Below are positions 1 to 47,053 of a DNA stretch of 64,000 nucleotides, piece after piece. The DNA comes from Spirochaetales bacterium Spiro_07. GTDB taxonomy: Bacteria; Spirochaetota; Spirochaetia; Treponematales; Treponemataceae. The position numbers and the translations under genes are program-made. Location: positions 62,001 to 126,000 of the forward strand of contig LVBI01000027.1 in assembly GCA_001603145.1 (NCBI GenBank). Direction: 5' to 3'. The notes beneath the pieces were generated by a model. It had not been told where the DNA came from and made no database searches. It saw only the letters and a program-made list of their open reading frames with translations. Each line of letters starts with the position of its first letter. Position 1 is the first letter of the stretch.

Positions 1-1146
1 GCTGCCGAAACCGGTGAGGCGCAGATAGCCTTCGCCCATTTTGCCAAAGCCGCTGCCCGGCGTTCCGACGACATTGCACTTTGCCAAAAGTTCGTCAAAG
101 AAAGACCAGCTCGTAAAGCCTTGCGGAATTTTCAGCCAAACATAAGGCGAATGTTCGCCACCGAAAGCCTTGAAGCCGGCAGCTTTTACGCCTTCAAAAA
201 TCAGCTTTGCATTTTCGCGGTAAAACGAAAGGTTCTGCTGAATCTGCTTTTGCCCTTCTGCTGAATAAACAGCTTCTGCTGCTTTTTGCGTGATGTACGA
301 AACGCCGTTGAACTTGGTGCTCTGACGGCGAAACCAAAGCTTGTTAAGCTCCGTGCCGTCAAAAACAAGCTTGTGCGGCACAACTGTGTAGCCGCAGCGC
401 ACGCCCGTAAAGCCGGCCGTCTTAGAGAATGAACGCAGCTCAATTGCGCAAGTCTTTGCACCGTCAATTTCGTAAATCGATTTTGGAATCGCTGGGTCTG
501 TAATAAATGCCTCGTAAGCCGAATCGTAAAGAATCAGGCTGTGATGTGCATTTGCGTAATCAACCCATTTTTTGAGATATTCCATTGAAGCCACCGCGCC
601 GGTCGGGTTGTTCGGAAAGCATAAGTAAATAATGTCAGGCGCTTTTGATGCGGCGGCCGGAACTTCTGGCAAAAAGCCTGTTTCTTCGGTGCAGTTCATC
701 AGCATGATTTTGTCTTTGCGTCCGTTCATGATGTTCGTGTCTATATAGACCGGATAAACCGGGTCGCAGATTGCAACAGTGTTGTCAGCCGCAAAAATAT
801 CGCCGATATTGCCGCAATCAGATTTTGCACCGTCAGAAAGGAAAATCTCGTCAAGCTGCAAATCAATTCCGCGGGCAAGATAATCATTTTCAAGAATCTT
901 CTGGCGCACAAAGTCATAGCCCTGCTCCGGCGGATAACCGCGGAAAGTCTTTTCGTCAGCCATTTCGTCAACAGCCTTATGCATTGCGTCAATCACGGCC
1001 GGGCAAAGCGGCTTGGTAACATCGCCAATCGAAAGCTTGATTACATCAGCTTCGGGGTGCGAAGCAATAAACTCGCGGGTCTTTTTATTTACTGTAGAAA
1101 AGAGGTAGCTTTCTTCCAAATCTAAAAAGTTCTTGTTGATTTTCAT
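1..1146 (-). CDS. dapL: LL-diaminopimelate aminotransferase (partial, C-terminus beyond window)
   Basis: This PLP-dependent class I/II aminotransferase converts tetrahydrodipicolinate and glutamate to LL-diaminopimelate in one step, feeding lysine and peptidoglycan synthesis. The translation starts MKINKNFLDLEESYLFSTVN and contains LSIGDVTKPL, FPNNPTGA and the PLP-lysine motif SFSKTAGFTGVR, all typical of DapL. About 382 residues are present before the window edge; the stop lies outside. The start is ATG at 1144-1146 with GGAGG about 8 nt upstream. It lies about 105 nt downstream of dapF on the same strand, with a palindromic repeat between them, and is probably cotranscribed. The DapL route is known in spirochaetes, chlamydiae and plants. 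Confidence 0.95.
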   Translation of the reverse strand, partial: MKINKNFLDLEESYLFSTVNKKTREFIASHPEADVIKLSIGDVTKPLCPAVIDAMHKAVDEMADEKTFRGYPPEQGYDFVRQKILENDYLARGIDLQLDEIFLSDGAKSDCGNIGDIFAADNTVAICDPVYPVYIDTNIMNGRKDKIMLMNCTEETGFLPEVPAAASKAPDIIYLCFPNNPTGAVASMEYLKKWVDYANAHHSLILYDSAYEAFITDPAIPKSIYEIDGAKTCAIELRSFSKTAGFTGVRCGYTVVPHKLVFDGTELNKLWFRRQSTKFNGVSYITQKAAEAVYSAEGQKQIQQNLSFYRENAKLIFEGVKAAGFKAFGGEHSPYVWLKIPQGFTSWSFFDELLAKCNVVGTPGSGFGKMGEGYLRLTGFGS

Positions 1147-1250: not shown

Positions 1251-2144
1251 TTATATTTCAACTTCGCCGGTAAAGACTTTTTCTGCCGGGCCAGTCATGA
1301 ACACGCTGTCGTTTTCGTTGCCGCTCCACTCAATTTCAAGGTCGCCACCAAGCAAATGCACGGTGATTTTCTCGCCGGCATCAACCAAGCCGTTCAAGAT
1401 TGCGGCAACAACAGTGGCGCATGTGCCTGTGCCGCATGCCAAAGTCTCGCCTGTGCCGCGCTCCCACACGCGCATAAAGATTGTGCGGCGGTCTTGCACA
1501 TACGCAAATTCAGTGTTCGTACGCTCTGGGAAAAACGCATGATTCTCAAAAAGCGGGCCAATCTCGCAAACAGGAAAATCAGCAGGCTTTTTGTCTATGA
1601 ACACAACCGCGTGCGGGTTGCCCATCGAAACGCAGGTGATTTTGTAGTCTTTTCCGCCGATTGAAAGAGGGTGCTGAATTACATGGCCGGTCTCTGAGTA
1701 AAGTTGAAGAGACTGCACATTCACCGGAATCTTTTCAGCTTGCAAGATAGGCTTGCCCATATCGACGCGCGCGCAACAAATCTTGTCACCGGGGTTGCCG
1801 CTTGTAATTTGAATGTGCTTTACCGCGCCCATCGATTCAATGCTGAATTCGCGCCCTTTTGTGTAGCCTGCATCATAAACGTATTTTGCCACGCAGCGGA
1901 TGCCGTTGCCGCACATCTGGCTTCTGCTTCCGTCAGCGTTGTACATTTCCATTTCAAAATCAGCCGATTTTCCGCGCTTTATCAAAATAATGCCGTCGCC
2001 GCCAATGCCGAAATGCCTATCAGAAAGCTTGACCGCAAGCCCGCTTGTGTTCAGCGGCTTTCCGTCCGCTCCTTTCAGATTACCGCTGGTGCAGTCAATG
2101 TAGATGTAGTCATTGCCGCAGCCGTGCATTTTCGTAAAGTTCAT
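1251..2144 (-). CDS. dapF: diaminopimelate epimerase
   Basis: DapF interconverts LL- and meso-diaminopimelate, supplying the precursor for lysine and for peptidoglycan cross-links. The 297-residue protein has the N-terminal motif FTKMHGCGNDYIYID and both catalytic cysteine motifs: MCGNGIRC (Cys78) and LACGTGTCAT near residue 230. This fits the two-base racemase mechanism. Length is slightly above the usual 270-290. The start has AAGGAGG 6-7 nt upstream. It heads a dapF-dapL unit that completes the DapL route. The leader (2174-2237) carries an intrinsic terminator and an ANTAR-like hairpin, so expression is probably controlled by antitermination. Confidence 0.97.
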   Translation of the reverse strand: MNFTKMHGCGNDYIYIDCTSGNLKGADGKPLNTSGLAVKLSDRHFGIGGDGIILIKRGKSADFEMEMYNADGSRSQMCGNGIRCVAKYVYDAGYTKGREFSIESMGAVKHIQITSGNPGDKICCARVDMGKPILQAEKIPVNVQSLQLYSETGHVIQHPLSIGGKDYKITCVSMGNPHAVVFIDKKPADFPVCEIGPLFENHAFFPERTNTEFAYVQDRRTIFMRVWERGTGETLACGTGTCATVVAAILNGLVDAGEKITVHLLGGDLEIEWSGNENDSVFMTGPAEKVFTGEVEI

Positions 2145-2173: not shown

Positions 2174-2237
2174 AAAAAAAGAGGCCGTAGACAGAATCTC
2201 AAAAAACTTGAGATTTTATCTACGACCTCTTTGCCGT
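2174..2237 (-). promoter_or_regulatory. dapF leader: ANTAR-like hexaloop hairpin overlapping an intrinsic terminator
   Basis: Read on the minus strand, a hairpin ACGGC-AAAGAG-GUCGU (2222-2237; one G-U pair) has a six-base loop with A at position 1 and G at position 4. The loop's AAAGAG also begins the 5' arm of a long terminator: AAAGAGGUCGUAGA pairs with UCUACGGCCUCUUU, followed by seven U (2174-2232). The two folds are mutually exclusive. The terminator ends about 30 nt before the dapF start. The layout matches the carA, pyrG and glnA leaders, although the sequence has diverged. ANTAR control is inferred from loop rule and layout. Confidence 0.65.
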
Positions 2238-2244
2238 TAGCTTG

Positions 2245-2273
2245 TTTTAACTTAATGCGGGCATATTTGTCAA
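2245..2273 (-). promoter_or_regulatory. sigma70-type promoter of dapF
   Basis: On the minus strand a perfect -35 TTGACA (2268-2273) is followed after 17 bp by TTAAAA (2245-2250), a weak -10. The expected transcription start falls at the 5' side of the leader hairpin. The -10 assignment is the uncertain part. Confidence 0.5.
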
Positions 2274-2437: not shown

Positions 2438-4546
2438 ATGCAGGACAAACAATCTTTCAGGGCATCCCTCACAATCAAGCTTTTGGTTATGGTTCTTGGC
2501 GTTCTTATCATTTCAACAATACTGCTCGGCGGAATGGCCTACAGAATTACCTCAAAAAGTATGACCCAAAGCGTCAACAATCAGCTCAGTTCTGTTTCAG
2601 CTGATATAGCAAACAGAATTGCTGCAATCAACGAAAAGCATTTTACAGCACTTCATTTCATTGCAGAACAGGAATTCATAAAATCCGAAGACATTTCTGT
2701 TGCAGACAAAAACTTTCAGCTTGCAAGCATTTCTACGTCGCTTGAAGACAATTACGGCAACATTGCATTTTACGACAAAGCCGGAAACACTACGCTGCCG
2801 GACGGCCGCGCCCTAAATTTTGCAGACCGTGAATACTTCAAAGAATCATTTGCCGGAAAAGATTATATTTCAGACCCGAAATTAAGCCCCGTATCTAATA
2901 CAATCTTGCAGCATTACGGCGTTCCAGTGCGCAACAAAAGCGGCAAAATCATCGGCTCTCTCGTAATGGTAGTCAACGGAAATTTGATTTACAACGAGAT
3001 TATCAAAATCGATTTGGGCGGCGGAATGCACCCTTCTGTAATCAATTACGCAACAAGCACTACAATTGCCAATGCAAACGAAGGCACAGACGAAAACGCA
3101 AATGGCTCTGACGGACAAGGACTTAGCGAAGAAGAAGGTCTTGGTCTTGTTCTAAAGCATGTGCTTGAAGGCAAGGAAGGCGTTGAAGCTTTTTACGACC
3201 CAAACATCCATGCGCATCTCATTTCAGCATATAAGATAGTTCCTAACACGACATGGACTGTTTTTGGAGTAGCACCTTATGCCTTGCATTTTTCAGCCCT
3301 TTCAAGTATGCAGAAGATGCTCACGGTGCTTATTCTTTGTTCAATCGCGCTGTCAACGGTGATAATCATAATACTGGTGGCAATTCTCATAAAACCGCTG
3401 AAAGCTGTCAAAGATTCCATTATGACAATTGCAAGCGGCAACGCTGACCTTACACAGAGAATTCCGGCTGCCACAAATGATGAAATCGGCGATGTGGTCA
3501 GAGGCTTCAACAGCTTTGTCGAAAAGCTGCAAGGAATCGTAACAAACCTTCAAGGCTCAAAACTGAGCTTGCAGACTGTCGACAAGCAGCTTCAAGAAAA
3601 CACACAAGACGCTTCTTCTGCCATAACACAGATTATTGCCAACATAGAAAGCGTCAACGGTCAGATTTTGAACCAAGCTGGCTCTGTAAACGAAACAGCA
3701 GGTGCTGTAAACGAAATTACGGCTACAATTGAATCGCTTGAAAAGATGATTGGCTTTCAGTCTTCTTGCGTTTCTCAAGCTTCTACAGCCGTTGAAGAAA
3801 TGATTGGCAACATCAATTCGGTCAACGTTTCTGTAGGCAAGATGATTGCTTCATTTAATCAGCTAACTGAAAATTCTGAATCTGGAACAAAGACACAGAG
3901 CAACGCAAATGAAAAAATCAAGCTTATTGAAGAGCAGTCAAAGATGCTGCAAGACGCTAACATTGCGATTGCAAACATTGCGGCACAGACAAACCTTCTT
4001 GCGATGAACGCGGCAATCGAAGCGGCACACGCTGGCGAAGCCGGAAAAGGTTTTGCCGTTGTTGCAGATGAAATCCGCAAGCTTTCTGAAACTTCTACGG
4101 CGCAATCAAAATCTATCGGCGCAGAGCTTCAGAAGATTCAGACAACAATTCAAGAAGTTGTTGCAGTTTCAAGCGAAACGAACACAGCTTTCTCTGCTAT
4201 TTCTCACAGCATTTCTGAAACAAGCGAGATTATCACGCAGATTAAAGACGCAATGGAAGAGCAGCAGCAAGGCTCTAAACAGATTATAGATGCGCTTCAT
4301 TCAATGAACAGCTCAACTTCAGAAGTAAAGAACGCGTCTGCTGAAATGACCGAAGGCAACAGGCAGATTCTTTCGGAAATGGAAAAACTTCAGAACGCGA
4401 CAGACGCAATCAAGGAAAGCATTACGGAAATGCAGATTGGTGCGCAGCGCATAAACCAGACCGGCGCAGCGCTTTCAATGATTTCGGGCAAAGTTGCTGA
4501 CAGCATTGAGGAAATCGGCTCTGAAATCGATTTGTTCAAAGTTTAG
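2438..4546 (+). CDS. methyl-accepting chemotaxis protein (Cache sensor)
   Basis: This transmembrane chemoreceptor of 702 residues senses a ligand outside the cytoplasmic membrane and controls CheA. It has a membrane segment at about residues 13-35, a periplasmic Cache-like region (about 36-285), a second membrane segment (about 290-315), a HAMP domain (about 316-370) and a long signalling coiled coil. The conserved tip reads [20 protein letters not shown], at about residues 515-535. No C-terminal CheR-docking pentapeptide is visible; the protein ends EIDLFKV. The start has AAGGAG 6 nt upstream. The ligand cannot be told from sequence. It is divergent from dapF and stands alone. Confidence 0.95.
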
Positions 4547-4617: not shown

Positions 4618-4629
4618 TTTTGCAGAAAA

Positions 4630-4701
4630 GAACAAAGGCGTTCATTCAATTTGATGATTCGACGGGAATCGTGTCATCTGATTGAGTGAGCGCCTTTTTT
4701 T
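4630..4701 (+). promoter_or_regulatory. carAB leader: ANTAR-type hexaloop hairpin and intrinsic terminator
   Basis: The hairpin GAAC-AAAGGC-GUUC (4630-4643) has a hexaloop with A1 and G4. A terminator starts at that loop: AAAGGCGUUCAUUCAAU (4634-4650) pairs over 17 bp with AUUGAGUGAGCGCCUUU (4681-4697), with two G-U pairs and seven U. An inner hairpin GAUGAUUC-GACGG-GAA caps it. Forming the short hairpin blocks the terminator's 5' arm. Compared with the pyrG leader, two A-to-G changes in the 3' arm keep pairing as G-U, which supports an RNA function. Confidence 0.8.
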
Positions 4702-4726
4702 ATAAAGGAACCCATACAGGAAGTTC

Positions 4727-8900: not shown

Positions 8901-9206
8901 ACAAGCGGCAACGCAAGCACAATCGAACGTTCCGGCATGCCGGTGGTTCACGTTGCAAAAGTGCATGAAGACCACAAAGACAATGTGATGACGCTACTCG
9001 AAAGCAAGAAAATCGATTATGTTGTGTCAACTTCAGCAAAAGGCAGAAACCCAGAAGCCGAAAGTGTAAGGCTGCGCCGCCTTGCAGTTGAGCACGACAT
9101 AGACTGCTTTACCGCAATAGATACGGCAAACGCAATGGCAGACTGTCTTGCAAGCCCATATTCGCTTGACAACGTGAGCCTTGTAGACATAAACGCCGAT
9201 TTATAA
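5916..9206 (+). CDS. carB: carbamoyl-phosphate synthase large subunit
   Basis: CarB makes carbamoyl phosphate from bicarbonate, ATP and ammonia supplied by CarA. The 1096-residue protein has the usual two homologous halves: a carboxyphosphate half (starting [20 protein letters not shown]) and a carbamoyl-phosphate half ([20 protein letters not shown], from about residue 578). Each half has an ATP-grasp domain. An MGS-like regulatory domain lies at the C-terminus. The usual length is about 1060-1075. The excess lies at about residues 473-525, in the linker between halves, where palindromic repeats encode KQVQGDS and HAELVSAS separated by a low-complexity stretch. It is translated with carA through a 14-nt overlap. 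Confidence 0.97.
   Translation: [1096 protein letters not shown]
7333..7433. repeat. palindromic repeat pair inserted in frame in carB
   Basis: Units at 7333-7358 and 7408-7433 are in opposite orientation and flank a stretch rich in Ser, Asn, Asp and Lys codons. A degraded third copy may follow at about 7450-7485. Confidence 0.8.
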
Positions 9207-9228
9207 AAAGCCCAAAAGAACAATTTTA

Positions 9229-9257
9229 TTGCTAAACAGGCTACGAAACGATATAAT
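9229..9257 (+). promoter_or_regulatory. sigma70-type promoter of the DUF2147 gene
   Basis: TTGCTA (9229-9234), a 17-bp spacer and a consensus TATAAT (9252-9257) lie 30 nt before the start codon. The gene can be transcribed independently of carAB. Confidence 0.65.
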
Positions 9258-12046: not shown

Positions 12047-12059
12047 ATCAGCATATTTT

Positions 12060-12122
12060 GAACAAAGGCGTTCATTCGGTTTGAGGGCTTATAGCCGTCA
12101 GATGGAATGAACGCCTTTTTTT
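12060..12122 (+). promoter_or_regulatory. pyrG leader: ANTAR-type hexaloop hairpin and intrinsic terminator
   Basis: GAAC-AAAGGC-GUUC (12060-12073; extendable by one U-A pair) has loop A1 and G4. Its loop begins the terminator arm AAAGGCGUUCAUUC (12064-12077), which pairs perfectly over 14 bp with GAAUGAACGCCUUU (12105-12118), followed by a U-run. The sequence capping the terminator differs from carA and glnA, so only the hexaloop arm and terminator arms are conserved. Confidence 0.8.
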
Positions 12123-12138
12123 ATGCGCGGGGGATAAT

Positions 12139-15702: not shown

Positions 15703-15714
15703 TAGAGCATATAT

Positions 15715-15777
15715 GAACAAAGGCGTTCATTTCTTCTTACGGCATAAGTGTCGCCAGGTGAAATGAGCGCCTTTTTT
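15715..15777 (+). promoter_or_regulatory. glnA leader: ANTAR-type hexaloop hairpin and intrinsic terminator
   Basis: GAAC-AAAGGC-GUUC (15715-15728; extendable to 6 bp with AU on the left and AU on the right) has loop A1 and G4. The terminator arm AAAGGCGUUCAUUUC (15719-15733) pairs with GAAAUGAGCGCCUUU (15760-15774) over 15 bp with one G-U pair, followed by six U. It precedes the operon that also encodes the ANTAR protein, suggesting autoregulation. Confidence 0.8.
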
Positions 15778-15835
15778 GTTGCGGAACGGCAACTGACAAA
15801 GCTTGTTTCCGCATCAGCTTTTACAGGAGAATTCG

Positions 15836-17002
15836 ATGTACACAGAAAGCGAAGTATTGGAGCTTATAGAAGAAGAGGACGTAAAATTTGTGCGCCTTGC
15901 CTTTTTTGATTTTCACGGCAAGCAAAAGAACATCTCAATAATGTCAGACCAGCTTGAAAAAGCTTTCAAAAACGGCGTCAGCTTTGATGCTTCTGCAATC
16001 TGTGGCTTTGAACCGCCCGAATGTTCAGACTTGTTTCTGCACCCTGATCCTTCCACAATTTCGATTATTCCGTGGAGACCGAACACAGGAAAAGTTGTGC
16101 GCATGTTCTGCAACATCAAAAAACCAGACGGCACGCCTTACAAAAAAGACTGCCGCACAATGCTTCAGAACGCCATCAAAGAAATGAAAGAAAAATGTAA
16201 CTGCTCGTTGAGCATCGGCTCTGAAATTGAGTTTTACCTTTTCAAGCTTGACGAAAAAGGCAACCCGACCAAAGAACCTTTTGATGAAGCGGGCTACATG
16301 GACATTGCGCCAGAAGACAAGGGCGAGAACATCCGCCGCGAAATTTGCTTTACGCTTGAGCAGATGGGCATAAGCCCCGAATCGAGCCACCACGAAGAAG
16401 GCCCGGGCCAGAACGAGATTGACTTTCACTATTCAGATGCGCTTTCGGCAGCGGACAATGCCGCAACATTCAAGTGGATTGTGCGCACAAGGGCGGCGGG
16501 CAGCGGCTTGTATGCAGATTTTTCGCCGAAACCGCTTGCGGATAAAGCTGGCAGCGGCTTTCACATCAACATTTCATGCTCTGACCCGTCAAAGACAGAC
16601 AACATTCTTGCGGGGCTGCTCAAGCACGCAAAAGAAATGACCTATTACATGAACAACTCCGAAGAATCTTATAACCGCTTCGGCGAGTATAAAGCGCCGA
16701 AATACATCGCTTGGGGGCATGAAAACAGAACGGCGTACATAAGAATTCCGGCTACAAAAGAAGCAAAGCGCATCGAGATTCGTTCTGCAGACCCAGAATG
16801 TAACCCATATCTTGTCTTTACGCTGATTATTCACGCCGCAATGGACGGAATTAAGAACAATTTAGTTCCACCTGAATGTGTAAAAGACAATCTTATGCAA
16901 GGCGATTCAAGCCTCAAGCTTGAAACGCTCCCAGACACGCTTGACTATGCAAGACAGATTGCACTTGAAAGCGATTTTGTAAAGCAAGCTTTCGGAAGAT
17001 AA
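15836..17002 (+). CDS. glnA: compact type I glutamine synthetase
   Basis: This enzyme makes glutamine from glutamate, ammonia and ATP. The 388-residue protein starts MYTESEVLELIEEEDVKFVR at an ATG with AGGAGA 5 nt upstream. Glutamine synthetase motifs are present: GSEIEFYLF, HHEEGPGQNEIDF, GSGFHINIS, ENRTAYIRIP and RIEIRSADPECNPYL. It is about 55 residues shorter than the second copy at 45722, missing sequence after the GSGFHINIS motif and at the C-terminus. It may therefore be a specialised or differently regulated isoform. It is cotranscribed with the ANTAR gene 15 nt downstream, an arrangement resembling the clostridial glnA-nitR pair. Confidence 0.9.
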   Translation: MYTESEVLELIEEEDVKFVRLAFFDFHGKQKNISIMSDQLEKAFKNGVSFDASAICGFEPPECSDLFLHPDPSTISIIPWRPNTGKVVRMFCNIKKPDGTPYKKDCRTMLQNAIKEMKEKCNCSLSIGSEIEFYLFKLDEKGNPTKEPFDEAGYMDIAPEDKGENIRREICFTLEQMGISPESSHHEEGPGQNEIDFHYSDALSAADNAATFKWIVRTRAAGSGLYADFSPKPLADKAGSGFHINISCSDPSKTDNILAGLLKHAKEMTYYMNNSEESYNRFGEYKAPKYIAWGHENRTAYIRIPATKEAKRIEIRSADPECNPYLVFTLIIHAAMDGIKNNLVPPECVKDNLMQGDSSLKLETLPDTLDYARQIALESDFVKQAFGR

Positions 17003-17017
17003 CAGGAAAGATTAGCC

Positions 17018-17584
17018 ATGTCTTATGATACGCACAGCGTTCTAGTTATTACTAAAGACAGTAAGGTTTCCGCACAAATAAGCGCGATGCTCATTCCGCC
17101 GATATTCGAGCTTAACACTGCCGAAGACTTTAACGAAGCGCGCCGCCGCCTTGCAGAAAGGGTGTACAACATCGTTATCGTAGATTATGCCGATGGCGAA
17201 GGCACTGACTTTGCTACAGATATTTCGTCTTCAACAAGCACAATATTGCTCTTGATTCCGGCAGCGCTCTTTGACCAGATAAGCTATAAGGTGGAAATCT
17301 TCGGAATACTTTCGGTAACAAGCCCGTTCGACCACTTCTATTTCTACAATATGATAAAGGTGGCCATCGCGGTTCAATATAAGGTGCAGATTCTTTCAAG
17401 CCAGACGATAAAGCTCAAAAACAAAATGGAAGAAATCCGCATTGTGAACCGCGCGAAGCTTCTTATAATGCAGAATCTCTCTTTTACAGAAGAGCAGGCG
17501 CACCACTACATCGAAAAAGAAGCGATGGACACCTGCCAAAAGAAGATAGACATTGCGAAGCAAATCATACAAACGTATGAATAG
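17018..17584 (+). CDS. ANTAR-domain antiterminator with degenerate receiver domain
   Basis: An RNA-binding transcription antiterminator of 188 residues. Residues about 1-125 resemble a response-regulator receiver (VLVITKDSKV, YNIVIVDYADGEGTD). The usual acidic pair after the first strand is not intact, and the late conserved lysine is not obvious (TSPFD in place of a KPF-like motif), so it may not be phosphorylated. Residues about 130-188 match the ANTAR domain: KMEEIRIVNRAKLLIMQNLS, then TEEQAHHYIEKEAMD and IAKQII. ANTAR dimers bind short RNA hairpins with an A1/G4 hexaloop and prevent terminators. Such loops precede this operon, carA, pyrG and probably dapF, its likely targets. Confidence 0.88.
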   Translation: MSYDTHSVLVITKDSKVSAQISAMLIPPIFELNTAEDFNEARRRLAERVYNIVIVDYADGEGTDFATDISSSTSTILLLIPAALFDQISYKVEIFGILSVTSPFDHFYFYNMIKVAIAVQYKVQILSSQTIKLKNKMEEIRIVNRAKLLIMQNLSFTEEQAHHYIEKEAMDTCQKKIDIAKQIIQTYE

Positions 17585-17598
17585 CTCCGCAAAGCCGT

Positions 17599-17644
17599 GT
17601 CATGCTGAACTTGTTAGCCTTCGGCGGCTTTCAGCTCAGCATCT
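17599..17644. repeat. long-variant palindromic repeat overlapping the TRAP permease stop codon
   Basis: This copy is identical to 1164-1209. Its last two bases form part of the TAG stop codon (17643-17645) of the permease gene on the minus strand, and it begins 15 nt after the ANTAR gene. Confidence 0.85.
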
Positions 17645-45721: not shown

Positions 45722-47053
45722 ATGAAAAACTACACAAAAGCCGACATCCTTAAATATGTCAAAGACAACGATATCAGATTCATCAGACTTCAGTTTACTG
45801 ATATTCTTGGAACGCTCAAAAATGTTGCCATCACGGCGACTCAACTTGAAAAAGCATTAAACAACGAATGTATGTTCGACGGTTCTTCAATCGAAGGTTT
45901 TGTGCGCATTGAAGAATCTGACATGAAACTTTACCCGGATTTGAACAGCTTCGTTCAGTTTCCGTGGCGCATTGCACCAGACACAGTTGCGCGCCTTATC
46001 TGCGACGTCTACAAACACGACGGCACGCCTTTCGACGGTTCGCCGCGCCAGGTGCTCAAAAATGTTCTTAACGACGCTGCAAAAGACGGCTTTACATTCA
46101 ATGTCGGGCCAGAATGTGAGTTTTTCTTGTTCCGCAAAGACGAAGACGGAAAACCGACGCTAAAGACTTTCGATTCAGCCGGTTACTTCGATATGGGGCC
46201 GGTTGACCCGGGCGAAGACGTGCGCCGCGACATTGTGCTTACGCTTGAAAAGATGGGCTTTGAAATTGAAGCTTCTCACCACGAATGTGCGCGCGGCCAG
46301 CATGAAATAGACTTTAAGTACGGCGACGCTTTGACGACGGCAGACCGCGTAATGACGTTCAAGCTTGCCGTAAAGACAATCGCCGATAAGCACGGCTTGC
46401 ACGCCACGTTTATGCCAAAGCCGATTTTCGGCATTGCAGGCAGCGGTATGCACCTGAATCTTTCAATGTCTAAAGACGGTACAAACGTCTTTTACGACGA
46501 AAAAGACAAAATCGGTTTGAGCAAGACAGCTTACAGCTTTATTGCCGGAATAATGGAGCATATAAAGGGCATCACTGCCATAACAAACCCGCTTGTAAAC
46601 TCTTACAAGCGACTTGTGCCTGAATTTGAAGCGCCTGTATACATTGCATGGTCTGCCCAGAACAGAAGCCCGCTCATCCGTGTTCCGGCTGCGCGCGGCA
46701 AAGGCACAAGAATTGAGCTTCGTTCAGCTGACCCGAGCGCGAACCCGTATCTGGCGCTTGCCGTAACGATTGCAGCCGGGCTTGACGGCGTAAGGCGCGG
46801 CCTTGTTCCGCCAGCCGCAGTAGACGGCAACATCTATTCGATGACGGCTGCACAGCGCAAGAAACACCACATCGGCTCTCTGCCCGCCTCTCTTGAAGAA
46901 GCACTCGACGAGCTGCAGAAAGACAAGTTTGTGTGCAACGTGCTCGGCCCGCATGTTCTTGAAAAATATGTTGAAGCCAAAGAGCTTGAGTGGCTTGAAT
47001 ATAAGACACGCGTAAGCCAGTGGGAAATTGACCGCTATCTTGCAAAATACTAA
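45722..47053 (+). CDS. glnA: glutamine synthetase type I (alpha subtype)
   Basis: A standard-length 443-residue glutamine synthetase, the second in the window. Motifs include [50 protein letters not shown] and [19 protein letters not shown]. The length and lack of the adenylylation-site insertion fit the GSI-alpha subtype, which is not controlled by adenylylation. AAGGAG precedes the ATG by about 9 nt. The ANTAR-type leader seen before the compact paralogue at 15836 is absent here, so the two copies are probably regulated differently. Confidence 0.96.

Follow-up and report, generated by a model that had tools for sequence, protein, structure and literature searches.

The dapF gene of this treponemal genome is preceded by a short leader, which raises the question of whether diaminopimelate (DAP) synthesis is placed under nitrogen control by an RNA-binding ANTAR protein. 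The role of glutamate in the DapL reaction is established. The leader lies in the window, the whole 64,000-nt stretch of DNA that was analyzed. On the minus strand, the TTGACA and TTAAAA promoter elements are followed a few bases on by a small hairpin, a terminator, and then dapF-dapL (Table 1), and the covariance-model match at the leader spans 2173-2241. As originally predicted, the hexaloop AAAGAG carries A1 and G4, and by both sequence and fold it coincides with the start of the terminator arm, of which it forms the first six bases (AAAGAGGTCGTAGA...TCTACGGCCTCTTTTTTT). The predicted consensus TTGACA is also found; at dapF it stands 41 nt from loop A1, and in the remaining three leaders of the window this distance is 45-46 nt. 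The whole leader folds as a terminator (-34.7 kcal/mol, z -8.6), and the short hairpin by itself folds at -5.5 kcal/mol (z -2.8). Because the hexaloop and the 3′ stem strand double as the 5′ strand of the terminator, the hairpin and the terminator are mutually exclusive. The upstream neighbor, a chemoreceptor (MCP) gene at 2438-4546, is divergent, so the terminator is part of the dapF transcript. An Rfam search of the window, which covers known leaders such as the lysine riboswitch, gave no match above the gathering score.

Table 1. Positions of the dapF leader, its genes, and the nitrogen-related features in the window
Feature	Position	Strand	Basis
-35 element TTGACA, dapF promoter	2268..2273	-	Read from sequence
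-10 element TTAAAA, 17-nt spacer from -35	2245..2250	-	Read from sequence
Putative antiterminator hairpin ACGGC-AAAGAG-GTCGT, 5-bp stem	2222..2237	-	Fold, covariation (51 distinct leaders), orthologous dapF leaders
dapF hexaloop AAAGAG, A1/G4 present	2232-2227	-	Sequence and fold
dapF intrinsic terminator, 5′ arm opening with the hexaloop	2178..2232	-	Fold, 14 covarying pairs
U-tract of dapF terminator	2180-2174	-	Sequence
dapF, diaminopimelate epimerase	1251..2144	-	TIGR00652
dapL, LL-diaminopimelate aminotransferase, continues beyond window edge	1..1146	-	TIGR03542
carA leader, type I hexaloop GAAC-AAAGGC-GTTC and terminator	4625..4702	+	Covariance model; carA by NCBIfam
pyrG leader, type I hexaloop and terminator	12055..12123	+	Covariance model; CTP synthase by Pfam
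GS-paralogue/ANTAR operon leader, type I hexaloop and terminator	15710..15779	+	Covariance model
Glutamine synthetase paralogue, flap Glu to Lys (YEAP to YKAP)	15836..17002	+	Pfam and alignments
ANTAR-domain protein, receiver-like N-terminus, presumed antiterminator	17018..17584	+	Pfam PF03861

Judged from its sequence, the dapF leader is very probably a single-hexaloop ANTAR attenuator that would keep dapF-dapL off by default, be opened by the ANTAR protein under nitrogen shortage, and be co-regulated with nitrogen assimilation. In the proposed mechanism, the hairpin would be contained in roughly the first 22 nt that polymerase transcribes from the TTGACA/TTAAAA promoter. The terminator, which is far more stable, would form by default and leave dapF-dapL off. 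During glutamine or glutamate shortage, the ANTAR protein encoded in the window would bind the hexaloop via A1 and G4, and polymerase would read past the small hairpin, held by ANTAR, into dapF-dapL; the choice of nitrogen shortage as the proposed signal follows the precedent of NitR (PMC6316151). Since the same switch precedes at least nine other nitrogen operons, DAP synthesis, with its glutamate-dependent DapL step, would be adjusted together with nitrogen assimilation.

Alternatively, the leader could be no more than a terminator beside which a mini-hairpin arose by chance, with dapF expressed without regulation through read-through or from a different promoter. AAAGxx loops do arise easily where terminator arms start A-rich, and some dapF genes have no element, but the register and the variation of the stem make this explanation very unlikely. 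In a register test on 70 distinct terminator-linked sites in relatives, chosen mainly by the terminator and the loop-side sequence (AAAGRSGY), 53 sites close at least 4 bp at exactly the hexaloop register (offset 0, size 6), compared with 1.4 expected with random flanks and 23.5 expected with permuted flanks. Most of the sites that lack a hexaloop stem are palindromic terminators read in antisense. Among 51 distinct aligned leaders, covariation is present in four of the five pairs of the 5-bp antiterminator helix, which is 90.6% paired and has 46 double-change cells versus 14.9 after shuffling; these leaders were preselected for at least 3 bp of stem, a bias toward structure that applies to pairs 1-3 and not to pairs 4 and 5. 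The 14-bp terminator of the same 51 leaders is 98.8% paired, with 131 double-change cells versus 36.3, and slid registers score far under both helices. The 5′ stem strand lies outside the terminator, and its covariation with the 3′ strand is therefore separate evidence for the small hairpin. Also against a chance hairpin, the hexaloop-terminator unit precedes ten functionally related operons, and the divergent orientation of the MCP gene leaves the terminator to dapF.

The attenuator reading is further supported by orthologous genes. A search based solely on protein homology yielded 14 Treponema dapF genes of the same kind as the window gene that carry the leader, and A1 and G4 are invariant in all of them. 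A leader that kept the terminator and lacked the AxxGxx hexaloop was sought among the aligned Treponema dapF leaders and none was found; AxxGxx is kept in 14 of 14 terminator-keeping leaders. The stems vary among orthologues, including ACGGC/GTCGT, ACGAC/GTCGT, and ATGGC/GCCGT, and only 3 bp are formed in two cases (GGC/GCC in L027 and GAC/GTC in L252). At two Treponema dapF genes (L023, from genome G105, and L251), the promoter is kept and both the leader and the terminator are gone, so this control is dispensable in places. In genome G057 (locus L025), the hexaloop-terminator is found about 630 bp 5′ of dapF, with a repeat array between them. That array, GC-rich and built of tandem units of about 30 nt, falls in the roughly 600 bp preceding dapF.

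The leader is one of a set. The covariance model was run on the 85% complete assembly and, among the 150 of 1146 candidates scored, gave at least 14 matches, comprising 12 elements and two antisense echoes; a 13th element, the second amt unit, was read by hand. The elements, at least 13 in number, precede ten operons: purF, gltD, gltB, asnB, amt-PII, glnN (type III glutamine synthetase, GS), dapF, carA, pyrG, and GS-ANTAR. Nearly all of these operons serve ammonium uptake or glutamine or glutamate synthesis or encode glutamine-using enzymes. The dapF leader appears to belong to this ten-operon nitrogen regulon of rumen-type Treponema, which is probably run by the RNA-binding ANTAR protein, and the original prediction that an ANTAR-type leader brings DAP synthesis into the regulon is well supported at the sequence level. 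Tandem elements, two each, precede gltB, amt-PII, and glnN. In this genome, the two-unit series of glnN, gltB, and amt-PII lie at 9121-9244 of locus L242, 1125-1274 of L107, and about 3430-3543 of L242, respectively, and the first unit of both glnN and amt has the loop AATGAG and a very short terminator. Every element found maps to contig C25, which makes up 130 kb of the 2.69-Mb assembly, between 11976 and 77779, the window being positions 62001-126000 of this contig. Sites are likewise clustered on one contig in three other genomes (G094, G029, and G085), and the nitrogen regulon seems to be physically clustered.

Two hexaloop types are distinguished: type II, with the loop AAAGAG and an ACGRC stem (dapF, asnB, gltB, and gltD), and type I, with the loop AAAGRC and a GAAC stem (carA, pyrG, and GS-ANTAR). 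Loops elsewhere in the regulon are AAAGRS, AATGAG, and AAAGAA. The original prediction held that every stem base at dapF differs from those of the other window leaders, which overstates the difference: the loop-closing C-G pair, common to dapF and carA/pyrG, is identical in all four window leaders, and in the second pair the 3′ U is constant, with a G-U pair at dapF and an A-U pair in the other three. An A-U pair is also found at this position in some dapF orthologues. Nor is the dapF core unique, as ACGGCAAAGAGGTCGTAGA recurs outside the window at asnB, gltB, and gltD of this genome. This 19-nt identity at dapF, gltB, gltD, and asnB might suggest a mobile or duplicated promoter-terminator repeat that has no selected function at dapF. 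Such an origin is extremely improbable, because terminator interiors and promoters vary between genes and species, the paired core alone being common, and because the element holds its position before orthologous genes in different genera. The prediction of shared recognition in place of a copied repeat accordingly stands in part: the copied repeat is rejected, since sharing is limited to the paired core, and the argument from an independent sequence falls, since the dapF stem is the commoner type of the regulon. A sounder case for shared recognition comes from pyrG, whose orthologues carry either type (type I in this genome, G036, and G029; type II in G003, G051, G141, and G143). The types therefore look interchangeable, which argues that one factor reads both.

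The candidate for this factor is the ANTAR protein of the window, which is the only ANTAR match in a genome search of the 85% complete assembly. It has weak matches to the structures of AmiR, NasR, EutV, and the putative antiterminator 1s8n. In alignments, EutV Lys149, Glu160, and Met172 are kept, Tyr164 is replaced by His, as in AmiR, and Arg168 is replaced by Glu. Across genomes, type II sites are found in 38 of 47 with the window-type ANTAR protein versus 7 of 98 without it, a comparison that is not phylogeny-corrected, and five of those seven carry another ANTAR protein. In another of the seven, genome G115, the type II match sits inside coding sequence and is rejected as a chance match. 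When anchored to the promoter, the type II pattern is found in 12 genomes with 0 control matches, and a scan of 294 genomes of the order showed it nowhere but within the family.

The same attenuator anatomy could instead serve another reader, an RNA-binding protein or a small molecule, for example with type I read by the ANTAR protein and type II by something else. Types I and II are indeed unlike in most stem bases, and genome G125 has leaders and no detected ANTAR gene (94% complete assembly). This alternative is unlikely, given that pyrG orthologues carry either type, that unlike units stand in tandem at glnN, gltB, and amt, that one covariance model recovers both types, that type II tracks ANTAR presence across genomes, and that no Rfam family matches. 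In G125, dapL has a leader immediately 5′ of it, and next to this leader a type I-like element faces the opposite way. The leaders of dapL and the divergent gene there (contig C93; L165 and L221) reflect either an assembly gap or decaying leaders.

Reading by the ANTAR protein may involve the GS paralogue encoded just before it. The flap Glu of GS is catalytic. In every relative read with a GS-ANTAR pair (L045, L047, L064, L065, and L071), the paralogue has Lys in its place, the flap motif of the ANTAR-paired Treponema paralogues being YKAP, FKAP, or HKAP. The GS at 45722 retains FEAP, and clostridial GS enzymes beside ANTAR genes mostly retain YEAP. The paralogue resembles a sensor-type pseudo-GS, and a sensor role providing the signal input to the ANTAR protein is our guess. 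The gene for the ANTAR protein NitR of Clostridium saccharobutylicum presumably adjoins glnA. According to Stutz 2007, as cited in PMC6316151, NitR is an ANTAR protein that induces GS/GOGAT genes under nitrogen limitation. Similar to NitR, the ANTAR gene here is adjacent to a GS gene and its candidate targets include GS and GOGAT genes. The differences are that the GS partner here is without the flap glutamate, that the host is a spirochaete, and that the regulon includes purF, asnB, carA, pyrG, amt-PII, and dapF-dapL.

The dapF leader combines the features expected of an ANTAR target, namely an A1/G4 hexaloop, a conserved stem of at least 3 bp, overlap with the 5′ arm of a terminator, and an ANTAR gene in the genome, and is classed as a putative ANTAR-dependent antiterminator RNA. 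No second hexaloop hairpin (P1) was found upstream of it in the 41 nt between the -35 element and A1, the start being predicted. In most leaders, the predicted start is 3-10 nt before the hexaloop (-35 to loop A1, 39-46 nt), too close, with the start predicted from the promoter, for a P1 hairpin like that of the classical dual motif to fit. In Enterococcus faecalis ANTAR leaders, both hexaloops are required. ANTAR targets have been defined by A1/G4 and the overlap between P2 and the terminator, and the classical motif comprises two hexaloops, P1 and P2 (PMC3369931). As in eutP/eutG (E. faecalis, EutV), nasF (NasR), and amiE (AmiR) (Ramesh 2012, PMC3369931), a short-stem A1/G4 hexaloop overlaps the terminator, the targets are nitrogen-related, and an ANTAR protein is encoded in the genome. 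Unlike these leaders, the attenuators described here carry a single hexaloop right at the 5′ end of the predicted transcript, with loop A1 about 5-10 nt past the predicted start, and lack a P1; the double hexaloops of gltB, glnN, and amt differ from the dual-hairpin RNAs in that a separate terminator belongs to each hexaloop. Desulfotomaculum acetoxidans and Pelobacter likewise have ANTAR regulons with numerous leaders ahead of nitrogen genes within a genome (PMC3369931), but those leaders are dual-hairpin and no DAP genes are named among them in that paper. The minimal ANTAR motif has been reduced to one hexaloop, in which G4 stacks on Tyr164; the same paper suggested that single-hexaloop targets may exist, and it still regarded a dual motif as required for antitermination (Walshe 2022, PMC8934654). 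Because the minimal site is one hexaloop, the dapF leader is assigned to a single-hexaloop variant outside the dual motif. One hexaloop is enough for contact with the ANTAR domain in the site of Walshe 2022 (PMC8934654); unlike there, single units are the rule across the regulon here. If the proposed mechanism is correct, ANTAR antitermination would work from one hexaloop at the transcript start, a point left open by the structural literature, and the small size of the hairpin makes the ANTAR claim directly testable.

A connection between ANTAR proteins and dapF is also visible outside Treponema, where 46 of 77 loci have an ANTAR gene upstream of dapF, at a distance within 300 nt in 44 of the 46. 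Nearly all of the 77 loci belong to Lachnospiraceae or related Clostridia, whose dapF genes are the closest relatives of the window dapF outside Treponema (53-59% identical). A GS C-terminus precedes the ANTAR gene in 37 of the 46 loci by sequence motif, one case being confirmed by Pfam. A search of the clostridial loci detected no hexaloop-terminator ahead of either dapF or the ANTAR gene, so the link there is one of gene order. With an ANTAR gene kept beside dapF in related gut bacteria and the dapF leader in the regulon, control of cell-wall precursors appears to be tied to nitrogen supply, and the adjacency in another phylum provides independent support for this tie. In the open-licence literature, no paper was found that connects ANTAR proteins with dapF or with nitrogen control in Treponema. 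If correct, the assignment would provide a nitrogen regulator for spirochaetes, for which none is named in the literature searched, and would tie cell-wall and lysine precursor supply to nitrogen status. A wider reading, tentative and rather less than an even prospect, is that one ANTAR protein might run almost the entire glutamine economy of rumen and gut Treponema (ammonium uptake, GS, GOGAT, and asparagine, carbamoyl phosphate, CTP, purine, and DAP synthesis) via single-hexaloop attenuators at the extreme 5′ ends of transcripts, with the catalytically altered GS as sensor partner and an ANTAR-DAP link old enough to account for GS-ANTAR-dapF clusters in Lachnospiraceae. The Lachnospiraceae-type loci with an ANTAR gene directly before dapF, mostly with a GS gene ahead of it, come from the locus set L253-L330. 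In the window, a 43-nt palindromic repeat is present in identical copies in the gap between dapF and dapL (1166-1208) and after the ANTAR gene (17601-17643).
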